This document shows, one piece after another, positions 13,614 through 23,340 of a stretch of 64,000 nucleotides of DNA; the stretch's first letter is position 1; the number at the start of each line of letters is the position of its first letter. The notes under the pieces were generated by a model. It worked only from the letters and a program-made list of their open reading frames with translations. It was not told the origin of the DNA and did not search any database. Both the position numbers and the translations under genes were made by a program. Source of the stretch: Micromonospora cabrerizensis (GTDB lineage Bacteria > Actinomycetota > Actinomycetes > Mycobacteriales > Micromonosporaceae); contig NZ_JAKKFI010000103.1 of the NCBI RefSeq assembly GCF_022230955.1, forward strand, positions 1 through 64,000, read 5' to 3'.

Positions 13614-14092
13614 CAGCGGCCCACCGGCCCTTCCGCTCGCGTGTCACGCAGATAATCGGTCAGATTCGGGTTCTCCGGCGTCAGCATGTGCCGGACCCAG
13701 GCGGCCCGCTCGTGCTCCAGCACCGCCAACTCCCAGACGCAGCCCACCCCGACGTGGGGCGGGCGGACGAAGTGTGCCGGGTCGTCGTCCGGGCAGTCCA
13801 GTGCCGGCTGACCGGCCACCGCGACGCGCACCTCCACCGCGTTGTCGAACATCCAGGTGTACGCCAGCAGGTAGGCGCCGGTGTCCGCGCCCCGGTGCAG
13901 CACGACCCACCCGGCGGCCGGGGTGCCGTCGTCGACGGTTTCCGCCAGCAGCGCCGGCAGCAGGTCGTACGCGGCCTTCTCCACCTCCGGCTCGATCGGC
14001 CGCTCGGGCTGGTCGATGTGGTAGCGCTTGAGCTGACGACCGTCCACCGTGATCGGTCCCGGTGTTCTCAGATCCTTGTCGCGAAAAGCCAT
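13613..14092 (-). CDS. conserved hypothetical protein under WYL control
   Basis: A 159-residue soluble protein that I do not recognise by family. Visible features are a GRQLKRYHID segment, WVVLHRGADTGAYLLAYTWMFDNAVEVR (possible strands), a cysteine in LDCPDDDP and a WELAVLEHERAAW helix. TACCGT lies at 14104-14099 on this strand, six bases before the ATG, with no Shine-Dalgarno, suggesting a leaderless mRNA. It overlaps the next gene by one base and diverges from the WYL regulator. Confidence 0.65.
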   Translation of the reverse strand: MAFRDKDLRTPGPITVDGRQLKRYHIDQPERPIEPEVEKAAYDLLPALLAETVDDGTPAAGWVVLHRGADTGAYLLAYTWMFDNAVEVRVAVAGQPALDCPDDDPAHFVRPPHVGVGCVWELAVLEHERAAWVRHMLTPENPNLTDYLRDTRAEGPVGR

Positions 14093-14115
14093 GCCGGGAC
14101 GGTACGACCGCTCCC

Positions 14116-14132
14116 CTGACAGCTAGTGTCAG
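14116..14132. promoter_or_regulatory. shared operator/leaderless promoters of the WYL regulator locus
   Basis: CTGACA (14116-14121) and TGTCAG (14127-14132) form a perfect inverted repeat around gctag. On the + strand the -10 hexamer TAGTGT (14124-14129) lies inside it, seven bases before the GTG at 14137. On the - strand the -10 TACCGT (14104-14099) lies just beyond it, six bases before the ATG at 14092. One bound dimer could control both genes and the regulator itself. Confidence 0.65.
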
Positions 14133-14136
14133 TGAA

Positions 14137-15114
14137 GTGCGGGCCAGTCGACTTCTCTCCGTCCTGCTGCTGCTCCAGTCGCACGGTCGGTTGACCGCCG
14201 CGCAGCTCGCCGACCGGCTGGCCGTGTCCCCCCGCACCATCTACCGGGACGTGGAGTCGCTGCACGCCGCCGGCATCCCGCTCTACGGAGAGGCCGGGCA
14301 CGCCGGCGGCTACCAACTAATCGACGGCTGGCGGACCCGCCTGACCGGGCTGACCGCCGACGAGGCCGACCGGCTCTTCCTGGCCGGGCTGCCCGGCCCC
14401 GCCGACGAGCTGGGCTACGGCGACGTGGTCGCCGCGCTGCAACTCAAGCTGCAGGCCGCCCTCCCCGCGCCGCTGCGCGACCGGGCCGCCCGACTCCAGC
14501 AACGCTTCCACCTGGACACCCCCGGCTGGTACGCCGACGGCGACGCCTCCCCCGAGCTGGCCCGCACGGCCGAGGCCGTCTGGCGGCAGCGCCGCATCGA
14601 GGTGCGCTACCGCGGCTGGAACGGTGAGGTGACCCGGGTGCTGGAGCCGTACGGCCTGGTCCTCAAGGGCGGCCGGTGGTATGTGGTGGCCGACCAGCCC
14701 GGTCGGGGCTCACCGGCGACGTACCGGGTCAACCAGATCCTCGCGCTGACCCCGCTGGCGCAGGAGTTCGACCGACCCGCCGACTTCGACCTGCCGGCCT
14801 GGTGGCGGGCGCACGTGGTGCGGTTCCGCGCCCGGCTGCACCGCGACGAGGCCACCGTCCGGCTCTCCCCCGCCGGTCGTGAGCGGTTGCGGGAGATCGG
14901 CAGCGACCCGGTGGTGACCGCGGTGGACGCCAGCGCCGGGCCGCCGGACGCGCGCGGCTGGGTGACCGCGGTGCTGCCGATCGAGTCGCTCACCCACGCC
15001 CACGGTGACCTGCTGCGCCTGGGCGCCGACGTCGAGGTGCTGACCCCGGTGGCGCTCCGCGAGCGCCTGGCCGCCACGGCGGCCGGGCTCGCCGCGCTCT
15101 ACCGGCCCGGCTGA
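14137..15114 (+). CDS. YafY/WYL-family transcriptional regulator
   Basis: A 325-residue regulator with an N-terminal HTH_11 winged helix (LLSVLLLLQSHGRLTAAQLADRL, SPRTIYRDVESL at about residues 30-41) and the conserved GGYQL step. A central WYL domain begins near RIEVRYRG with EPYGLVLKGGRWYVVA, and a C-terminal WCX-like extension follows. WYL domains bind ligands, in some cases nucleotides or nucleic acids, but the ligand here is unknown. The start is GTG 14137; TAGTGT seven bases upstream suggests leaderless transcription. It is divergent from the two small genes at 13155-14092 and probably autoregulates. Confidence 0.85.
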   Translation: MRASRLLSVLLLLQSHGRLTAAQLADRLAVSPRTIYRDVESLHAAGIPLYGEAGHAGGYQLIDGWRTRLTGLTADEADRLFLAGLPGPADELGYGDVVAALQLKLQAALPAPLRDRAARLQQRFHLDTPGWYADGDASPELARTAEAVWRQRRIEVRYRGWNGEVTRVLEPYGLVLKGGRWYVVADQPGRGSPATYRVNQILALTPLAQEFDRPADFDLPAWWRAHVVRFRARLHRDEATVRLSPAGRERLREIGSDPVVTAVDASAGPPDARGWVTAVLPIESLTHAHGDLLRLGADVEVLTPVALRERLAATAAGLAALYRPG

Positions 15115-15207: not shown

Positions 15208-15840
15208 GTGAGGGTCACGTTACGGCTACGCGCACTGGTCGCCGTGCCCGGCACCGGGCCGGTGACCCTCGACGTCCCCGCCGGCACGCTCGCCGCCCTG
15301 GTGGCGCCGCCCCGGTTCGGCACGGCGGTCGCCCGGGTGCTCGCCGGGCTCGCCGCCCCGGTGACCGGTCGCGTCCTGGTCGGCGACCGGGACGTCACCG
15401 TCCTGCCGCCACCGCGCCGGCAGATCGGCTACGTGCCCGCCGGTGGCGCGCTGCTCCCCCAGCTCACCGTGCGCCGCAACATCGAGTACGGCCAGCGCAA
15501 ACGTGAGCGGGTGCACGAGGTGGCCGACGACTGGACGGCCACCGTGGTCGAGCGCCTCGAGCTGGCGTTCTCCCTCACCCTGCTGCCGCACCAGATCAAC
15601 GCGGCCCAGCGGTTCCGGGTGGCGCTCGCCCGGGCGGCGGTGTGCCTGCCCGAGGTGCTCGTCATCGACCTGCCGGCCGGGTCGGCCGGCGACAGCCGAC
15701 TCGGTGACCTGATGCCCCGGCTCTCCCCACCGGACTCCCCCGGGGTGGCGGTGCTGGTCTGCACCGCCGACCCGGCCACCCTCGCCGAGATCCCGGTGCG
15801 CCACGAGCTGGTCACCGAGCCGAGCGAGGCCACCCGATGA
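15208..15840 (+). CDS. degenerate ABC ATPase-like protein (pseudo-ATPase)
   Basis: A 210-residue protein aligning by eye over the whole MalK-type nucleotide-binding domain (LAALV..., VLAGLAAPVTGRVLVGDRDVT, IGYV...ALLPQLTVRRNIEYG, QRFRVALARAAV, EVLVIDLP), yet every catalytic motif is changed. Walker A reads APPRFGTAV (Lys replaced by Thr39), the Q-loop Gln is Ala78, the signature is INAAQ (130-134), Walker B is VIDLP (Glu replaced by Leu155) and the H-loop His is Ala187. It cannot be expected to hydrolyse ATP. The frame is intact and overlaps the next gene by ATGA. The start is uncertain: GTG 15208 abuts its ggag, and TTG 15157 is an alternative. Confidence 0.7.
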   Translation: MRVTLRLRALVAVPGTGPVTLDVPAGTLAALVAPPRFGTAVARVLAGLAAPVTGRVLVGDRDVTVLPPPRRQIGYVPAGGALLPQLTVRRNIEYGQRKRERVHEVADDWTATVVERLELAFSLTLLPHQINAAQRFRVALARAAVCLPEVLVIDLPAGSAGDSRLGDLMPRLSPPDSPGVAVLVCTADPATLAEIPVRHELVTEPSEATR

Positions 15841-17114
15841 CGCCCAGCGTCCGGCTGGGTCGCCGCGCCCTGCTGCGGGCCGCCGCCGCGAGTGCCACGG
15901 CCCTGGCCGCCGGCTGCTCGGGCGGGACCCGGTCGGTGCAGGTCGCGGTGGTCTGGAGCACCAGCGAGCTGGACCGGTTCCGCGACGTCGTCGCCCACTA
16001 TCCCGGCGATGTGCAGGTGGTCAGCGCCGGCAACGACATCGACGCGTTCCTGCGGGCCCGACACCTCGCCGGCACCAGCCCGGACGTGGCCATCCTGCCG
16101 CGCCCCGGCCTGGTCACCGAGTACGCGCAGCGCGGTTGGCTGAGCCCGGTGCGCCCCTCCAGCGAGTACGCGGTGCCCGACGGGCTGGGCGAGTTGCTGA
16201 CCGCCGAGGGCCGGCGCTACGGCGTCTGGGTGAAGGCGGCACACAAGTCGCTCGTCTGGCACCTGCCGTCGATGCTGTCCGAGCAGCCGGCCAACTGGGA
16301 CGAGCTGGTCGCGCTCACCCGCCGGCTCGGCGCTGCCGCCCGGCGCGACGGCGGCCCGGCACCCCTGGCCGTCGGCGCGGCGGACGGGTGGGTGCTGACC
16401 GACTGGTTCGAGAACGTGCTGGCCGACGTGGCGCCCGAGGGCTACAACATCCTCGCCCGCCCGAAGGCCGACTGGCGGGCACAGCCGGTACGCGACGCGC
16501 TGGGCCGGCTCGCCGAGCTGTGGAGCGTCGACGGCGCGTTCCTCGGTGGTGGGCGTCGGGCCCTGCTCACCCAGTACGAGGAGTCGGTGATCCAGGTGGT
16601 GCACACCCGGCGTGCGGTGATGCTCTTCGGGGCCGACTTCACCGCCGACGTCGTCGGCCCGTTCCAGCGTGGCCCGGAGGCACCGACCACGTTCCCGTTC
16701 CCGGGCGCCCGGCCGGGCGGCGGCCCGCTGATCGTCGGCGGCGACGCCGCGGTGGCGTTCACCGGCGCCCGGGGTGGGGTCGAGCTGGTCGAGTGGCTCA
16801 CCAGGGCCGACTCGTTCCGGCCGTGGCTGCGCGCCGGCGGCTACCTCTCGCCCAACACCAACGTCCCGATCAGCAGCTACACCGACCAGGTCGGCCAGCA
16901 GCTCGCCCGGGAGATGCAGGCGCCCGGCACGCTGCGTTTCGACCTCTCCGACCAGCTGCCCGGCGCGTTCACCGGCTCGGACGGGGTCGGCATCTGGCGG
17001 ATCATGCAGGGCTTCTTCGCCGACGTCACCGACGGCGTCGGCGCCGGCGAGGCGATCCGGCGCGCCACCGGTGAGCTCGCCTCGGCGGCGCGCAGCGCGG
17101 GTGGCGGCCGATGA
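15837..17114 (+). CDS. solute-binding lipoprotein of sugar-type ABC system
   Basis: A 425-residue extracellular solute-binding protein. The N terminus has twin arginines (LGRRALLRAA) and a lipobox LAAGC with Cys at about residue 26, so it is lipidated outside the membrane, possibly after Tat export. The body resembles family-1 sugar-binding proteins: SAGNDIDAFLRAR, PDVAILPRPGLVTEYAQRGWL, NWDELVALTRRL and AVMLFGADFT are in the usual order, with a terminal GIWRIMQGFFADVTDG. It starts by ATGA overlap with the pseudo-ATPase gene and overlaps the permease gene by ATGA, so the operon is tightly coupled. The ligand is unknown. Confidence 0.8.
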   Translation: MTPSVRLGRRALLRAAAASATALAAGCSGGTRSVQVAVVWSTSELDRFRDVVAHYPGDVQVVSAGNDIDAFLRARHLAGTSPDVAILPRPGLVTEYAQRGWLSPVRPSSEYAVPDGLGELLTAEGRRYGVWVKAAHKSLVWHLPSMLSEQPANWDELVALTRRLGAAARRDGGPAPLAVGAADGWVLTDWFENVLADVAPEGYNILARPKADWRAQPVRDALGRLAELWSVDGAFLGGGRRALLTQYEESVIQVVHTRRAVMLFGADFTADVVGPFQRGPEAPTTFPFPGARPGGGPLIVGGDAAVAFTGARGGVELVEWLTRADSFRPWLRAGGYLSPNTNVPISSYTDQVGQQLAREMQAPGTLRFDLSDQLPGAFTGSDGVGIWRIMQGFFADVTDGVGAGEAIRRATGELASAARSAGGGR

Positions 17115-18877
17115 GCCAGGTGCGTGTCCTCGGCGAGCTGGCGGTGCTCGACGACGTCGGGCCGCCCCGGCGCGGCCGGGCATATCCGGCGGCGGGGGCG
17201 ACCTCCGCGCTGTTGCTGCCGGCCGCGGTGCTGCTCGGTGGGCTCGTGCTGTGGCCGGTGCTGCGGACCATCCACGCCAGCGTCACCACCGACGGCCGCT
17301 GGGTCGGTGCGGAACACTTCCAGACCGCGCTGGCCGCCCCGGGCACCGGCGCGGTGGTCGGCCGGACCTTCCTCTGGGCGCTGCTGGTGCCGGCGGTGGT
17401 GACGGCCCTGGGCTATCTGCTCGCCGCCGCCTCCCGCCGCTCCCAGGAGGGCGGGCTGGTCCGGTTGATCCTCCTGGTGCCGGTGGCGCTGCCGCTGGTC
17501 GTCACCGGGGTCACCTTCCGGCTGATGTACGACCCGGACCCGACCCGGGGGCTGGCCACCCTGCTCGCGGCCCGACTGACCGGCCGCCCGTACGACGACG
17601 CGCCGCAGCTGCTCGGGCCGGGGCTGGTCACCGTGGCGTTGATGTCGGCGTTCGTCTGGGCCTGGGTGGGGTTGGCCGTGCTGGTCTTCCGGTCCGCGCT
17701 GGACGCGGTGCCGTCGAGTCTCGCCGACGCGGTGCGCGCCTACGGCGGGGGGCGACGACACGTCCTGTGGGACGCGCAGTGGCGGCCACTGCTGCTGCGC
17801 ACGACCGCGGTGGTCTTCGCGTTGGTGGCGGTCGGCACGAGCCGCACGTTCGACCTGATCCTCGTGATGACCCCCGGCTCGGTCCGCGACGAGGCCTCCG
17901 TGCTCGCGCTGCGCATCTGGCAGACCTCGGGCGGCACCACCACCGGCGACGGCGCCGCGCTCGGCGTCGTGTGGTTGGTGGCGGTCGTCGGCGGGATCAT
18001 GGTGGCCGCGCTCTTCGTCCGACAGGCCTGGCCCCCACCGCCCGCAGAGAAGGCACCGGAGCCCAGTCCCGTCGCCCCGCCCCGGCGGGTGTTCCGGCTG
18101 CTCGCGGCGGGCGCGGCGGTCGCCTGGTTGGTGCCGCTGGGAGTGCTGGTCGCCACGTCGGCACACGGCCGGGTGGACGCCGCCGCGCGCGGCTGGTGGT
18201 CGGCGCCGCCGAACGCCGAGTCCTACCGCACCGTGGTCACCGGCACGGAGCTGTGGCACACGCTGGGCTTCACGCTGCTCCTGGCCACCGCGGTGACCGC
18301 CACGGTGCTGGTGGTCGCGCTGCTGGCCGCGTACCCGTTGGCCTGGTTGACCGGGCCGGCCGCGCAGGCCACCGGGCTGGTGCTGCTGGCGGCCAGCGTC
18401 GTGCCGATCCAGGTCATCGCCGGGCCGGTCAACGAGGTGCTGGGCCTGGTGCTCTCCTCCGGCACGGCTCAGGGCCTGGCCCTGGTGCACATCGCGCTGG
18501 GTGTGCCGTTCGCGGTGCTGGTGCTGCGCAACGCGTTCGCCGACCTGCCGGTCGAGCAGGTGCGCGACGCCCGGCTGGGCGGGCGGCGGTGGTGGCACAC
18601 CCTGCGCCGGTTGGCGCGGCACAACCTGTCGGCGGTGGTGGCGGTCTCCGTGCTGGAGTTCGTCCAGGTCTGGAACGACCTGGTGGTGGGTCGGCTGTTC
18701 AGCGGGCCGGGGGCGTCGCCGCTCGGCCCGTTCCTGGCCGAGCAGACCCGCAGCTTCGTGAGCAACAGCGGCGCGCTGGCCGCCAGTTCGGTGCTCGCCT
18801 CGGTGCTCCCGGTGGTGCTCATTGTGCTGTCGCGGCGACACCTGGTCGCCGGGCTCGTCTCCGGAGGTGTCCGCTGA
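17111..18877 (+). CDS. fused two-domain (MalF-MalG type) ABC permease
   Basis: A 588-residue membrane protein in which two binding-protein-dependent permease domains are joined in one chain. Domain 1 (about residues 30-310) has six or so helices and an EAA-like loop, LADAVRAYGGGRRHVLWD. A Pro-rich cytoplasmic linker (WPPPPAEKAPEPSPVAPPRR) follows. Domain 2 (about 330-588) has an EAA-like loop, VEQVRDARLGGRRWWHT. These loops normally dock an ATPase, but the encoded partner in this operon is the degenerate one. The N-terminal 25 residues (VRVLGELAVLDD) are soluble and unexplained. It is joined by ATGA to the SBP gene and by CTGA to the next gene. Confidence 0.85.
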   Translation: MSQVRVLGELAVLDDVGPPRRGRAYPAAGATSALLLPAAVLLGGLVLWPVLRTIHASVTTDGRWVGAEHFQTALAAPGTGAVVGRTFLWALLVPAVVTALGYLLAAASRRSQEGGLVRLILLVPVALPLVVTGVTFRLMYDPDPTRGLATLLAARLTGRPYDDAPQLLGPGLVTVALMSAFVWAWVGLAVLVFRSALDAVPSSLADAVRAYGGGRRHVLWDAQWRPLLLRTTAVVFALVAVGTSRTFDLILVMTPGSVRDEASVLALRIWQTSGGTTTGDGAALGVVWLVAVVGGIMVAALFVRQAWPPPPAEKAPEPSPVAPPRRVFRLLAAGAAVAWLVPLGVLVATSAHGRVDAAARGWWSAPPNAESYRTVVTGTELWHTLGFTLLLATAVTATVLVVALLAAYPLAWLTGPAAQATGLVLLAASVVPIQVIAGPVNEVLGLVLSSGTAQGLALVHIALGVPFAVLVLRNAFADLPVEQVRDARLGGRRWWHTLRRLARHNLSAVVAVSVLEFVQVWNDLVVGRLFSGPGASPLGPFLAEQTRSFVSNSGALAASSVLASVLPVVLIVLSRRHLVAGLVSGGVR

Positions 18878-21258
18878 CCAGGCCGGGCGGTGGCCGCCGC
18901 AGCCCGCGCTGGCCGGCGTTGATCGCGATCGGCGGCGTGGTCAGCGGCGTCCTCGCCAACCTGGTCAGCAACCTCGCCAGCGACCTGCTCTCCGAGCTGG
19001 CGGCCAGCGTGCTCGGGCCGACGAGCATCGCCCTCGCCGCCGGGGGCATCGTCGGCTTCGTGGTCTACGAGGTGCGCCGCCGCCGGGCCGACCGGGAGGT
19101 CGACCCCGAACCGACGGATGTGCTCACCGCGCCGGCCACCGGCGCGCCCACCCTGCCCTACACGGCCGAGTTCACCGGCCGCGAGGACCATGTCGAGGCG
19201 GTGCTCGGGCTGCTCGCCAGCGAGCACGCGGTGGCCGTCCTGGGCCGACGCGCGGTGGGCACCTCCGCGTGCGCGGTGCAGGCCGCGAACCTGTGCCGGG
19301 AGGACTTCCCCGACGGGCAGTACTACCTCGACCTGCGGCGGCGCGGTCGCGCTCACTCGGCCCGGCAGGTGCTCACCGCACTGGCCCGGATCCTGGGCAC
19401 CGCCCCGCCGGTCTCCGGCCGGCCGGACGCGCTCGCCGCCGCCGCCGACGCGCTGCGCGGCCAGCTCGACGGCCGCAGGATCCTGCTGGTGCTGGACAAC
19501 GTCGACCGGCCCGACCAGGTCTGGCCACTGCTGCCACCCACCGCGCGCACCTGCCGGCTGCTGCTGGCCGGCGGCCCGGCGCTGGTGGGGCTCAAGGGTG
19601 TGGTCGCGCACTGGATCGCCGAGCCGGGCACCTCCGAGGCGGTCGAGCTGTTCGCCACCGCCGGTGGGGCCGCCCCCGCCGCCCGGGTTCGCCGTGCCGA
19701 CCCCCGCACCGACCCGGAGGTCCGCGAGATCGTCGACCTGTGCGGCCGGCAGCCACGCACCGTCCGTGCGCTCGGTTACCGCACCGCACAACACGGCTGG
19801 CGGCACTCCGACGTGCTGGACGCGCTGCGCCGCGCCGTGCAGACGCCGCCACACCAGCGGCTGACCGTCTCGCCGGCCGCACGCCTGATCACCGAGCGGG
19901 ACACCGCGTACCGGGCGTTGACCCGCGGGGCCCGCCGGTTGTACAGGGTGATGTCGCTGATCCCCGCCCCGGTGGACCGGCCGACCATCGCCGCGCTGGC
20001 CGGGCGGCACCCCGAGCGGGTGACCGCGCTGCTCGACCAGTTGGCCGCCGCGGCGTTCGTGGTCGGCGCGCCCGGCGACCGGTACGAGATCCGCCCGCTG
20101 CTGGCCGCCAGCGCCCGGCTGCACCTGCGGGACGCGGACCCGGCCCGGGCCCGGGTCGCCGCGCAGGCCCGACTGACGCGGCACCTGGCCCGCCGAGCCG
20201 AACGACACGCGGCCAACCTGGCGGTGCTCGGCACCCCACCGGACCGGGAGTGGTCGCTGCCACTGGACGACGACCCGTACGGCTGGTTCGACCTGCACCA
20301 GGAGCTGCTGCTGGCGGTGGTGCGGGTGCCGGCCGGCGCGGCCGAGACACTGCCCCGCCGGGTGCGCCGCTGGTGGTTCCGGCTGGCCGTGGCGCTGTGC
20401 GGCTGGCTGGCGTACGCCGAGCGGCTCGACGAGTGGGAGCAGGTCTGTCGCACCGTGCTGGCCACCCCCACGGCCGACGACCGACCGGAGATCGCCGGGT
20501 GGGCGCACAACGAGCTGGGTGTGCTGCGCCGTCGCCGGCACGACCCGCACGGTGCGGCGGCCGCGCTCACCCTCGCGGTCAACGAACGCGGTCGCCGGGG
20601 CACCGCCCAGGCCCGGATGAACCTGGGCCTGGCGCTCTTCGACCTGGGGCAGCTCGACGACGCGGTGGAGCACCTGGAGATGTCGCGTCGGCACCGCTCG
20701 GGGGCCGACCGCGCCGGGCACGCCCTCACCGACCTGGGCCTGGGCGCGGCGCAGCTCGCCCGGGGTGAGTTGGACATCGCGCACCACCACCTGGTGCGGG
20801 CGGCGAACGCGTTCCGGTCGGTGGGTGACGCTCGCGGGTACGCGGCGGCGCTGACCAACCTGGTGCTGGTGCACGCGGCGCTCGGCGAGCACCTGGACGC
20901 CGCGCAGGCGTGGCGGGCCGCACTGCGCGAGTACGAGTCGGTCAACGACCCGACCAGCCGGGCGACGGCGCTGCTCAACGCCGGGGCGACGCTGCTGAGC
21001 AGCACCCCGGGGCAGGCGCACACGGCGTACGAGATGCTGGCCGAGAGCCGGCGGCTGCGCGAGGAGGCGCGGCCCACGGCGGGGCTGGCGCGCACCCTGC
21101 TCTACCTGGGCGACGCTGCCGCCGCGCTGGGCGACCAGGCCGACGCGCGGCGGCACTGGGCGGACGCGGCGGCGGTCGCCGAGGAGGTCGCCGACGATCA
21201 GGGGCTGGCCGCCGCCGACGCCCGACTCGAGGCCGACGCCACGGATCGCGTGACGTAG
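18874..21258 (+). CDS. membrane-anchored degenerate STAND/NB-ARC protein with TPR repeats
   Basis: A 794-residue protein. Residues 14-65 carry two hydrophobic segments and end in a basic stop (VRRRRAD). FTGRE at 100-104 opens an AfsR-like NB-ARC module, but the P-loop reads GRRAVGTSA with the lysine replaced by Thr130, while Walker B LLVLDNV is kept and the TSR and GLPL motifs are lost. A winged-helix-like region follows, then TPR repeats from about residue 540 (WAHNELGVLRRR, ARMNLGLALFDLGQLDDAVEHL, AALTNLVLVHAALG). No ATG, GTG or TTG fits: CTG 18874 lies six bases after GGAGG and overlaps the permease stop as CTGA, so I call CTG as start. TTG 18919 is the alternative. Confidence 0.7.
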   Translation: MTRPGGGRRSPRWPALIAIGGVVSGVLANLVSNLASDLLSELAASVLGPTSIALAAGGIVGFVVYEVRRRRADREVDPEPTDVLTAPATGAPTLPYTAEFTGREDHVEAVLGLLASEHAVAVLGRRAVGTSACAVQAANLCREDFPDGQYYLDLRRRGRAHSARQVLTALARILGTAPPVSGRPDALAAAADALRGQLDGRRILLVLDNVDRPDQVWPLLPPTARTCRLLLAGGPALVGLKGVVAHWIAEPGTSEAVELFATAGGAAPAARVRRADPRTDPEVREIVDLCGRQPRTVRALGYRTAQHGWRHSDVLDALRRAVQTPPHQRLTVSPAARLITERDTAYRALTRGARRLYRVMSLIPAPVDRPTIAALAGRHPERVTALLDQLAAAAFVVGAPGDRYEIRPLLAASARLHLRDADPARARVAAQARLTRHLARRAERHAANLAVLGTPPDREWSLPLDDDPYGWFDLHQELLLAVVRVPAGAAETLPRRVRRWWFRLAVALCGWLAYAERLDEWEQVCRTVLATPTADDRPEIAGWAHNELGVLRRRRHDPHGAAAALTLAVNERGRRGTAQARMNLGLALFDLGQLDDAVEHLEMSRRHRSGADRAGHALTDLGLGAAQLARGELDIAHHHLVRAANAFRSVGDARGYAAALTNLVLVHAALGEHLDAAQAWRAALREYESVNDPTSRATALLNAGATLLSSTPGQAHTAYEMLAESRRLREEARPTAGLARTLLYLGDAAAALGDQADARRHWADAAAVAEEVADDQGLAAADARLEADATDRVT

Positions 21259-21298
21259 GTCGCTCGGGTTGGTCGGTGGCACGGCTCTGGGAGACTCT

Positions 21299-21922
21299 GT
21301 GATCGTGGACGCGCTCTCGGTACGGGGACTCAGTCGCAACTTCGGCAACCTGGTCGTGCTCGACGAGGTGAGCTTCACGCTCGCGCCGGGGCGGATCGCG
21401 GTGGTGCTGGGCCCCAACGGCAGCGGCAAGACCACCCTGCTGCGCTGTGTCGTCGGCGCGGACCGACCGGACGCGGGCGAGGTGCTGGTGCAGGGCCGCC
21501 GGGCCGACGAGACCGACCCGCAGGTGCGGGCGCTGGTGGCGGCAGCCCTGGACGACATCGACTTCTTTCCCGACCTGTCCGTGGTCGAGCACCTGGAGCT
21601 GGTGGCGTACGCCCACGGGGGTGACGCCGAGCCGGTCGAGGAGGTCCTCGCCGAGCTGGGTCTGGAGCCGGCCCGCGACCAGCTGCCGGTGACCCTGTCC
21701 AGCGGGCAGCGCCGCCGGTTGGCGTTGGCCTCGTGTTTCGTCCGGCCGCGCCGGGTGCTGATCCTGGACGAGCCCGAGCAGCGGTTGGACGTCCGTGGGC
21801 GGCAGTGGCTCGCCGAGCGGCTGCTGCGGGAACGCGAAGCCGGGACGGCCGTGCTGCTGGCCTCGCACGACCCGGAGTTGATCGACGCGGTGGTCGACGA
21901 GCGCATCGAGATCGGCCGGTGA
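21299..21922 (+). CDS. ABC transporter ATP-binding protein (intact)
   Basis: A 207-residue ABC ATPase with all motifs: Walker A GPNGSGKTT at about residues 38-46, a signature LSSGQRRR, Walker B VLILDEP and an H-loop ASHDPE. The Q-loop glutamine position is not obvious (VAAALDDIDFFP), which is common in small exporter ATPases. GTG 21299 follows gggag by six bases, 40 bases after the TPR gene, and its stop overlaps the next start as GTGA. It therefore pairs with the following membrane protein as an exporter-type ABC transporter. It may also be transcribed with the upstream degenerate system. Confidence 0.88.
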   Translation: MIVDALSVRGLSRNFGNLVVLDEVSFTLAPGRIAVVLGPNGSGKTTLLRCVVGADRPDAGEVLVQGRRADETDPQVRALVAAALDDIDFFPDLSVVEHLELVAYAHGGDAEPVEEVLAELGLEPARDQLPVTLSSGQRRRLALASCFVRPRRVLILDEPEQRLDVRGRQWLAERLLREREAGTAVLLASHDPELIDAVVDERIEIGR

Positions 21923-23340
21923 CCGCCCCGCCGGCCACGATCGCCGACGCGCCGGCCGGGGTGCCCACCGCCCGGCAGCTGCGGACACACCTGCGCAAGG
22001 CGCGCAGCCGGCACCACGACCACTCCCTCGGCGACGTGCTGGGTGACGCGTACGTGATGGTCCTGTTCGTGGGCATGTACGGCTGGTTCGCGATCAGCGC
22101 GAGCCGCGACCTGCTGGACTCTCCCACGGTGGGGCGGGCCGAGCCGGGGGTGCGGTGGTGGTTGGCGGTCGCCGCGCTGCTGGCCGGCGCCGGGCTGGCC
22201 TGGCGTGGTCTGCGCGCGCTCGGGCCGCTGCTGGTCACCCCGGCCACGCAGAGCTGGGCGACCAGCGCACCGGTGGACCGGCGGGCCTGGCTGGCACCGC
22301 GCTTCGTCCTGCTGCTGCTGGGGGCCGCGGCCGGCACCGCGGCGCTCGGGGCGGCCGTGGCGGCGCTCGGCGGTGTCACCGACCTGGCCGCGCTGGGCTG
22401 GGCCGCCGGGGCCGGCGCGGGGTGGGGCGCGGCCGCGCTGGCGCTCAGCGTCGTCGCACAGAGCAGCCGGGCGGGCCGGCGGTGGCCGACCCTGGCCGGT
22501 GCGGTGCCGATGGGGGCGGCAGCCGCCATCACCGCCCTGGTGGTGCTCGTCGGTCGCCTCGGCGACGGGCTGCCCCGGCCGGCGGCGACGCCGAGGGTCG
22601 CGTTGTTCGCCGCCGCGCTGCCCCTCGTGGGCTTGGGCACGATCCTCGCGGTCCGCGCGTTGCCCCGGGTCGACCGGGCCACGCTGACCACCGGCGCCCA
22701 GTTCGCCAATGCCGCCTCCACGGCCATGATCCTGCTGGACCCGAGTCTGCTCGCCGGCCTGGTGGAGAGCCGGCGCTGGCGCCGGATCGGCCGGGTTCGC
22801 AGCAGCCGGTTCCTGCCCGGCCCCGCCTGGTGGGCGCTGCTCCAGGCCGACGTACGCCGGTTGCGCCGGCACCCGAGCGCCGTGCTGATCTGGGCCGCCC
22901 TGATCGGAGTGCAGTACGCTGCCGCGCTCGCCCTGCCCGGGCTGGCCGGGGCCACGCAGGTGGTGTTCGCCTACCTCGCCGCCGACCGGCTGACGGGTGG
23001 CCTGCGGTCGATCAGCCGCTCACCCGGGCTGCGCCGCGCGCTCGGGGGCAGCGACGCCCTGCTGCGGGGGATCCACGTGGTGGTGCCGGCGATCGGCGCG
23101 GGCCTGTGGTGGTTGCTGACCCTTCCGACGGTCGACCCCGGGCCGGCGTGGCTCGCACCGACGCTGGCGGTCGGGGTGGTGCTCGCCGCGTTCCGGGCCG
23201 GCACCCGCCCGCCGATCAACTACGGCGGCGCGACGGTCAACACCCCGTTCGGGATGATCCCGGTCGACCTGATGCGTCAGGGGTCTCGCGGGCCTGCGCT
23301 GCTCGCCGTGCTGGTCCTCGTCCAACTGTTCCTGGGCTGA
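21919..23340 (+). CDS. ABC transporter-associated multi-span membrane protein (DUF6297-like)
   Basis: A 473-residue integral membrane protein with about ten to twelve hydrophobic segments (VMVLFVGMYGWFAIS, WWLAVAALLAGAGLAW, FVLLLLGAAAGTAAL and others) and basic loops such as ARSRHHDH and ESRRWRRIGRVRSSRF. The size, partner gene and Arg-rich centre suggest the actinobacterial DUF6297 family; I am only moderately sure of that name. GTG 21919 overlaps the ATPase stop as GTGA. It is likely the membrane half of a two-gene ABC-2-like exporter. The substrate is unknown. The stop codon begins the 21-bp tandem repeat. Confidence 0.7.
   Translation: MTAPPATIADAPAGVPTARQLRTHLRKARSRHHDHSLGDVLGDAYVMVLFVGMYGWFAISASRDLLDSPTVGRAEPGVRWWLAVAALLAGAGLAWRGLRALGPLLVTPATQSWATSAPVDRRAWLAPRFVLLLLGAAAGTAALGAAVAALGGVTDLAALGWAAGAGAGWGAAALALSVVAQSSRAGRRWPTLAGAVPMGAAAAITALVVLVGRLGDGLPRPAATPRVALFAAALPLVGLGTILAVRALPRVDRATLTTGAQFANAASTAMILLDPSLLAGLVESRRWRRIGRVRSSRFLPGPAWWALLQADVRRLRRHPSAVLIWAALIGVQYAAALALPGLAGATQVVFAYLAADRLTGGLRSISRSPGLRRALGGSDALLRGIHVVVPAIGAGLWWLLTLPTVDPGPAWLAPTLAVGVVLAAFRAGTRPPINYGGATVNTPFGMIPVDLMRQGSRGPALLAVLVLVQLFLG

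Follow-up and report, generated by a model that had tools for sequence, protein, structure and literature searches.

An importer-like operon with disabled nucleotide-binding sites in Micromonospora cabrerizensis and its possible remodelling into a receptor

What does an operon that resembles a sugar importer do when both of its nucleotide-binding proteins have lost their catalytic residues? The question is raised by a four-gene cassette of soil actinobacteria, hereafter the module, at positions 15208-21258 of a 64,000-nucleotide stretch of the Micromonospora cabrerizensis genome (assembly GCF_022230955.1, contig NZ_JAKKFI010000103.1, positions 1 to 64,000; hereafter the window). Its four open frames, all on the plus strand (15208-15840, 15837-17114, 17111-18877, and 18874-21258), start with GTG, ATG, and ATG for genes 1-3, and CTG would start gene 4. 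They encode an ATP-binding cassette (ABC) protein, a solute-binding protein (SBP) of the lipoprotein type, a fused permease, and a membrane-anchored protein that combines a signal transduction ATPase with numerous domains (STAND) fold with tetratricopeptide repeats (TPRs). The initial annotation had reported Thr39, INAAQ, Leu155, and Ala187 in the ABC protein and Thr130 in the STAND protein; all are present, and the frames are open. The explanation favored here, to which we assign a probability of roughly 55%, is that a former importer of the carbohydrate uptake transporter 1 (CUT1) class was remodelled into an ATP-independent receptor complex that passes ligand occupancy to a TPR scaffold. 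The features involved, with the evidence for each, are as follows.

15208-15840, plus strand: pseudo-nucleotide-binding domain (pseudo-NBD), a 210-aa ABC fold of MalK/CysA type that lacks catalytic residues and starts on GTG (Pfam, alignment, model)
15322-15324, plus strand: Thr39 at the Walker A Lys position (column in 71 loci)
15670-15672, plus strand: Leu155 at the Walker B catalytic Glu position (column in 71 loci)
15766-15768, plus strand: Ala187 at the H-loop His position (column in 71 loci)
15837-17114, plus strand: solute-binding lipoprotein of CUT1 (sugar) type with a twin-Arg signal and Cys27 in the lipobox (Pfam, alignment)
17111-18877, plus strand: permease of fused MalF-MalG type, 588 aa long with 12 hydrophobic segments (Pfam, hydropathy)
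17144-17191, plus strand: conserved permease N-tail VLDDVGPPRRGRAYPA preceding membrane segment 1, putatively a docking element (alignment)
17717-17794, plus strand: EAA coupling loop 1, degenerate, DAVRAYGG (alignment)
18548-18625, plus strand: EAA coupling loop 2, degenerate, VRDARLGG (alignment)
18874-21258, plus strand: membrane-anchored STAND-fold/TPR protein, 794 aa from the presumed CTG start (model, hydropathy)
18919-19053, plus strand: TPR protein, two hydrophobic segments at residues 16-34 and 42-60 (simple hydropathy scan)
19243-19266, plus strand: degenerate P-loop of the TPR protein, GRRAVGTS, Lys to Thr130 (alignment)

For the pseudo-NBD, residues were counted across 71 loci of the window's family (70 relatives and the window), with unreadable columns excluded. 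None has the Walker A Lys (0/70; Thr in 68, Arg in one, Met in one, and a gap in one), the Walker B Glu (0/71; Leu in 66, Arg in three, Gly in one, and Thr in one), or the H-loop His (0/70; Ala in 57), and in the Q-loop region a Pro is present and Gln is found in 0 of 70. The proposed K-to-T, E-to-L, and H-to-A changes thus prevail in the 71 loci, and the protein lacks the three residues by which a functional CUT1 NBD is recognized. The suggested loss of the ABC signature (INAAQ at residues 130-134 in the window) is correct in part: the second Gly is mostly gone (kept in 5 of 71), but Ser and Gln are kept in 60 and 70 loci. These changes are more than chance would give, being fixed in 71 loci, whereas at the best MalK-like loci of the same genome (30 of 145 matches) a GK[ST] frame occurs in 30 of 30 and a DEP Walker B follows it in 27. 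All tested ABC residues are likewise intact in the sister importers that have an ATPase next to them (6/6). Nine genus orthologues on short loci have GT at Walker A (9/9), with the Walker B pattern unmatched in one, and the Walker A Lys is absent from all five more distant module loci (L109, L126, L180, L183, and L184). The counter-example named at the outset, a homologue whose Walker residues are restored within this type of operon, was not found among the 71 loci, these five, and 20 loci of intermediate SBP similarity described below. One further locus, L114, ends inside the SBP, leaving its NBD out of view. Two Walker A remnants, GPSGFGGT (L099) and GETGFGGT (L180), lie near GPSGxGKT and are possible living intermediates of the loss.

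The overall fold of the pseudo-NBD appears to be retained. Its predicted structure (all models were of single chains) has a mean predicted local distance difference test score (pLDDT) of 90.3 and is MalK-like, with template modelling (TM) scores by query length of 0.71-0.81 over 50 listed matches. Following the lost Q-loop, pseudo-NBDs also keep ALLPHLTVxxNI (with PQ in the window); the importer counterpart is ALYPHLNVxDNI or a similar sequence. In MalK, we take this stretch to lie near the permease.

The fourth gene encodes two N-terminal hydrophobic segments, a STAND-like region, and then the TPRs. Among the 66 of 69 tpr genes that exceed 700 aa, the P-loop Lys occurs in none (Thr in 63, Ser in one, Ala in one, and Gly in one interrupted gene); own-genome STAND paralogues examined have GKT in 7 of 7. 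At the TSR-like position (sensor-1 Arg), the sequence is mostly AGG, AGT, or similar, so that neither the P-loop Lys nor the sensor-1 Arg of a STAND NTPase is present. The loss of STAND motifs claimed earlier therefore holds for the P-loop Lys and TSR, but the Walker B Asp (LVLDN) survives, as does the GLPL-like motif's Pro (66/66). The structure model (pLDDT 84.2, with a low-confidence anchor) best matches the STAND-TPR protein PH0952 (6mfv, E-value 1.3e-11) and next Apaf-1. The 6mfv match is domain-wise only (TM 0.30-0.35, root-mean-square deviation 23 over the whole chain), and the predicted architecture is consistent, domain by domain, with a STAND fold bearing a TPR sensor. PH0952 has been presented as homologous to MalT and as bearing a TPR sensor (PMC6468293).

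Searches for specialized functions of this protein returned little. Pfam showed no DNA-binding domain in the window set, and an anti-phage defence system was rejected since PADLOC gave nothing specific, with a generic TPR model for protein 4 (9e-07) and no model for the other three. The domain plan is similar to that of HaaT/AfsR-type STAND-TPR proteins (NF041717, NF053617), and residues 16-788 resemble HaaT, a TPR protein of ribosomally synthesized and post-translationally modified peptide (RiPP) biosynthesis (1.3e-33). The module nevertheless scores far under the cut-offs (116 bits against 1125 for NF041717), and its P-loop Lys is lost. A HaaT-type RiPP system was rejected on this score; also, no neighbor is shared by more than 37 of the 71 loci, with WYL the only cluster annotated by family.

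Might the operon simply be decaying? In the 71 loci, sbp was located in 71, the permease gene in 70, and tpr in 69, and the predicted gene order, permease fusion, and membrane anchor are borne out. The -4 overlaps are kept at 64/71, 64/70, and 60/69 successive junctions. In the window all three junctions overlap by four bases as first described, but the third (region 18868-18880) reads CTGA and implies a CTG start. At this junction GTGA occurs in 51 of 69 loci, ATGA in 13, and CTGA in five, namely the window and four near relatives (L073, L075, L078, and L107); gene 4 in the window either has an unusual CTG start or has moved to a downstream one. Pairwise ratios of nonsynonymous to synonymous substitution rates (dN/dS; NG86 method) were calculated for 19 pairs (18 for tpr) and are below 1 for all four genes in every pair. 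For the ABC gene, the three window pairs nearest each other lie at 0.10-0.13 and the three after them at 0.23-0.25, distant window pairs reach 0.50, and all 19 pairs stay below 0.64; the permease gave 0.13-0.35. The cassette is under purifying selection. A decaying operon without function, for which one may cite its patchy presence and interruptions at four of 71 loci, is already largely refuted and very improbable, because dN/dS is below 1 and the residue columns and gene order are conserved. The earlier view that the catalytic residues were lost by selection agrees with these ratios, the conservation, and the overlaps.

The module has a patchy distribution centered on one family. An ABC orthologue occurs in 64 of 151 genus genomes at an E-value of 1e-67 or better (next match 2e-23); nine of these 64 had short loci only and entered the motif check alone, and G315 was left out. 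In the family sample, 59 of 300 genomes matched at E-values of 1e-26 or below, in 12 of 44 genera, and gene order is conserved across the family. The cassette is also present in Verrucosispora, Actinoplanes, Amorphoplanes, Rugosimonospora, Dactylosporangium, and Actinocatenispora records, and diverged or reduced forms occur in Lentzea, Umezawaea, and Nocardia. A phylum-wide search with the NBD profile matched 37 of 296 genomes at 1e-36 or better; besides the window, these unopened matches lie only at 1e-36 to 1e-40, taken as the level of ordinary MalK-like ATPases.

The remaining proteins relate the module to sugar importers. Pfam identified ABC_tran (2.4e-11), SBP_bac_1 (2.6e-08), BPD_transp_1 in two stretches (1e-10), and TPR_12 (4.5e-09) in the window proteins. 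In the SBP, R9 and R10 of the twin-Arg signal and C27 of the lipobox are invariant, and positions that include W40, E44, F48, K137, W141, D189, E192, W213, D303, and D372 show little or no variation across importers, the module, and Nocardia; the lipoprotein thus has the importer-type core of CUT1 binding proteins. Because its nearest solved relatives are the chitin-oligosaccharide protein NagB2 (4e-12) and the trehalose protein LpqY (6e-08), the predicted ligand is likely sugar-like. The permease, whose best solved match is SugB/SugA, is strongly conserved. It is fused in the module and consists of two separate frames in all 14 sister importers with permeases in view. The sisters have EAA (or EAAK) followed by DG in both halves (14/14 shown). 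In 17 module rows, loop 1 is DAVRAxGG or more degenerate and loop 2 is degenerate, so that the two intact EAA loops of a functional CUT1 permease are missing; in 11 Nocardia rows, both loops are unrecognizable. The N-tail is recognizable in 12 of the 17 module rows and in 0 of the 11 Nocardia rows. Like LpqY-SugABC and other CUT1 (MalFGK2-type) importers, the module combines an SBP lipoprotein, MalF/MalG-type halves, and a MalK-like fold. Unlike them, it has a fused permease, degenerate EAA loops, an NBD of 210 aa without catalytic residues, and an added TPR protein.

These loops bear on whether the permease still imports, driven by a shared MsiK-type ATPase, with the pseudo-NBD as a regulatory or structural subunit. 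Several observations are compatible with such sharing. The SBP core is intact; no ATPase was seen in sister importers L112, L118, L124, L125, and L128 (the last on a short contig), and L110, L111, L117, and L123 have only an ABC gene apart or on the other strand. The window's genome encodes MalK/UgpC-type ATPases, two of them above the curated cut-off, an intact ABC gene lies near one Nocardia locus, and MsiK sharing in Streptomyces is reported in the literature (PMC6167110). However, the EAA loops are lost and the NBD is dead, which makes a borrowed ATPase less likely, though possible. The pseudo-NBD has no Walker half-site, and in most loci the Gly pair is missing from its signature; an active partner would therefore not be expected to form a complete composite site with it. 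Continued import by this route is judged unlikely.

Related loci suggest how the module may have arisen. In a tree of 49 SBP rows, the 15 importers group as a single clade (100/100), and all module and Nocardia rows lie across that branch; rooted on the importers, the tree suggests a single origin of the module and Nocardia forms. Further reduction is seen in L126 (family f15, probably Pseudonocardiaceae), which keeps the pseudo-NBD and has a TPR frame of only 521 aa with no P-loop and no Pfam match. The Nocardia type (L185-L200, L119, and L120) consists of the SBP, the fused permease, and a TPR protein without the NTPase domain. The absence of that domain is deduced from an alignment of 12 Nocardia TPR rows (12 of 17 frames found by position), which matches the module TPR profile only at residues 384-731 (99.6% probability); a search with tpr profile A2 recovered the TPR frame at 11 of the 16 named Nocardia loci. 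With the NBD profile, no pseudo-NBD was found within the 18 Nocardia-type loci, the search being confined to the loci and covering only about 250 bases upstream in L192. The lipoprotein, fused permease, and TPR protein persist in related, further-reduced operons. Of 16 Nocardia-type loci compared, seven have a band-7-like gene upstream of the SBP, and in L189 it is Band_7 plus NfeD by Pfam.

From these patterns we infer, with slightly less than an even chance of being right, that a whole SBP-dependent ABC importer was converted once in actinobacteria to an ATP-independent transmembrane receptor, an importer-derived transceptor. Both nucleotide machines would have been disabled in place and then removed in Nocardia, leaving the SBP, fused permease, and TPR adaptor. 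The loss of energization while the SBP core was kept points to this reading, and the cassette probably senses a nutrient instead of importing it. The ligand-loaded SBP would dock on the permease, which may shift conformation without cycling; the pseudo-NBD, in which the stretch after the Q-loop is kept, may cap the cytosolic face of the permease, and the TPR solenoid would read the permease state and serve as a scaffold for a partner, much as in GlnH-GlnX-PknG or MalFGK2-MalT.

The same components may be arranged differently. The permease could be a facilitator or channel that works without ATP, is gated by the TPR protein, and owes its selectivity to the SBP; the strong conservation of the 12-segment permease and the absence of a working ATPase from the set would agree with this. 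However, an SBP should add little to passive flux, and we know of no type I importer permease that acts as a facilitator, so this arrangement is improbable. Alternatively, the set may be an envelope or assembly machine with no sensing role, in which the SBP and permease would form a platform and the TPR protein would bring in cytosolic enzymes. The HaaT similarity and the band-7-like genes would suit such a machine, but no neighbor recurs above 37 of 71 loci (clusters annotated for WYL alone), and the SBP core is that of ligand-binding importers; we regard it as rather unlikely. A receptor derived from an importer is accordingly the best of the explanations compared.

Relatives of the SBP were also surveyed beyond the family. 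Order- and class-level searches matched 85 and 90 genomes, which overlap, and 40 loci were opened. Among 20 middle-band loci opened, 12 lack a permease frame in the stretch (which a contig end cuts short in some), seven have separate permeases (two beside an intact ATPase), and one is a Nocardia-type operon (L248); none of the 20 combines a fused permease with an intact ATPase. For SBPs matching at 1e-42 to 1e-54 without a permease frame, a kinase-cluster gene lies near seven of nine loci examined and a von Willebrand factor A (vWA)-cluster gene near six of nine. The kinase-near loci (L231, L232, L233, L237, L238, L239, and L246) are mostly of family f15, with a vWA gene in six of the seven; in L233, Pfam identified PknG_TPR (6.9e-61) plus kinase and vWA. 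Because such genes lie near them, relatives of the module SBP seem to serve in signalling elsewhere, perhaps as a GlnH-GlnX-PknG-like system with a sugar-type SBP.

Several known systems share parts of this plan. In Escherichia coli, MalT is anchored at the membrane by resting MalFGK2 (PMC10427625), and similarly a STAND protein with a TPR-like sensor is tied to a MalFGK-type membrane complex. However, MalT activates transcription under a nucleotide switch, and the importer that holds it does transport, whereas neither nucleotide site of the module looks usable and Pfam shows no DNA-binding domain. GlnH-GlnX-PknG of actinobacteria (PMC8546545; PMC9769921) also combines a lipoprotein SBP, a membrane protein, and a TPR domain, the last proposed as a scaffold coupling SBP detection to output (PMC8546545), but GlnX is no permease, and the module has no kinase to correspond to PknG. 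In PstSCAB-PhoU-PhoR, the conformation of an ABC importer is read as a signal, and two PstB variants without transport still signalled (PMC5775613), although wild-type PstB is active. Prokaryotic transceptors of the S-component/5TMR fold (PMC11109136) likewise reuse a transporter fold as a receptor, but as a single membrane fold in sensor kinases, whereas the module is a whole SBP-permease-NBD set. No description of a set of SBP, permease, pseudo-NBD, and TPR protein was found in a limited literature search that left subscription papers mostly uncovered; the claim of the initial annotation that no such system is described fits that search and extends no further.

A WYL-domain regulator (14062-15114) lies on the same strand about 95 bases upstream of the ABC gene, and its cluster occurs at 31 of 71 loci. 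Downstream (21269-23340) are an ABC ATPase with an intact GPNGSGKT and then a membrane protein, an ordinary-looking separate pair; counting the window, 21 of the 71 loci have this ATPase downstream on the same strand.

The following points weigh against an ATP-independent receptor. The loss of the Walker A Lys does not prove that nucleotide binding is lost, and in four of the five distant members the Walker B pair is E-D, not D-E, with a carboxylate at the Glu column. At the Nocardia locus L188, an intact ABC ATPase is encoded on the opposite strand some 2.3 kb upstream, the sole ABC match in the 18 loci. The cassette is missing from 87 of the 151 genus genomes searched; the tpr or abc gene is interrupted or truncated in L046, L059, L066, and L098 by assembly error or decay, and the family search flagged a stop inside the match in G095, G170, G180, and G235. 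The ABC gene of the close pair L063/L065 has a dN/dS of 0.635, at a synonymous divergence of 0.065. Flanks are variable, with the commonest neighbor clusters at 37, 33, and 31 of 71 loci (the last being the WYL regulator), and no ligand, partner, or output gene has been identified.

If the receptor explanation is correct, the module would represent an importer turned into a receptor by loss of its engine, with intermediates still extant: the intact importer, the form with a disabled NBD and STAND protein, and the form from which the NTPase domain and the NBD gene have been lost. Signalling by importer conformations would then be directly testable in a complex that is expected not to cycle, and a candidate nutrient-sensing system would be added for actinobacteria.

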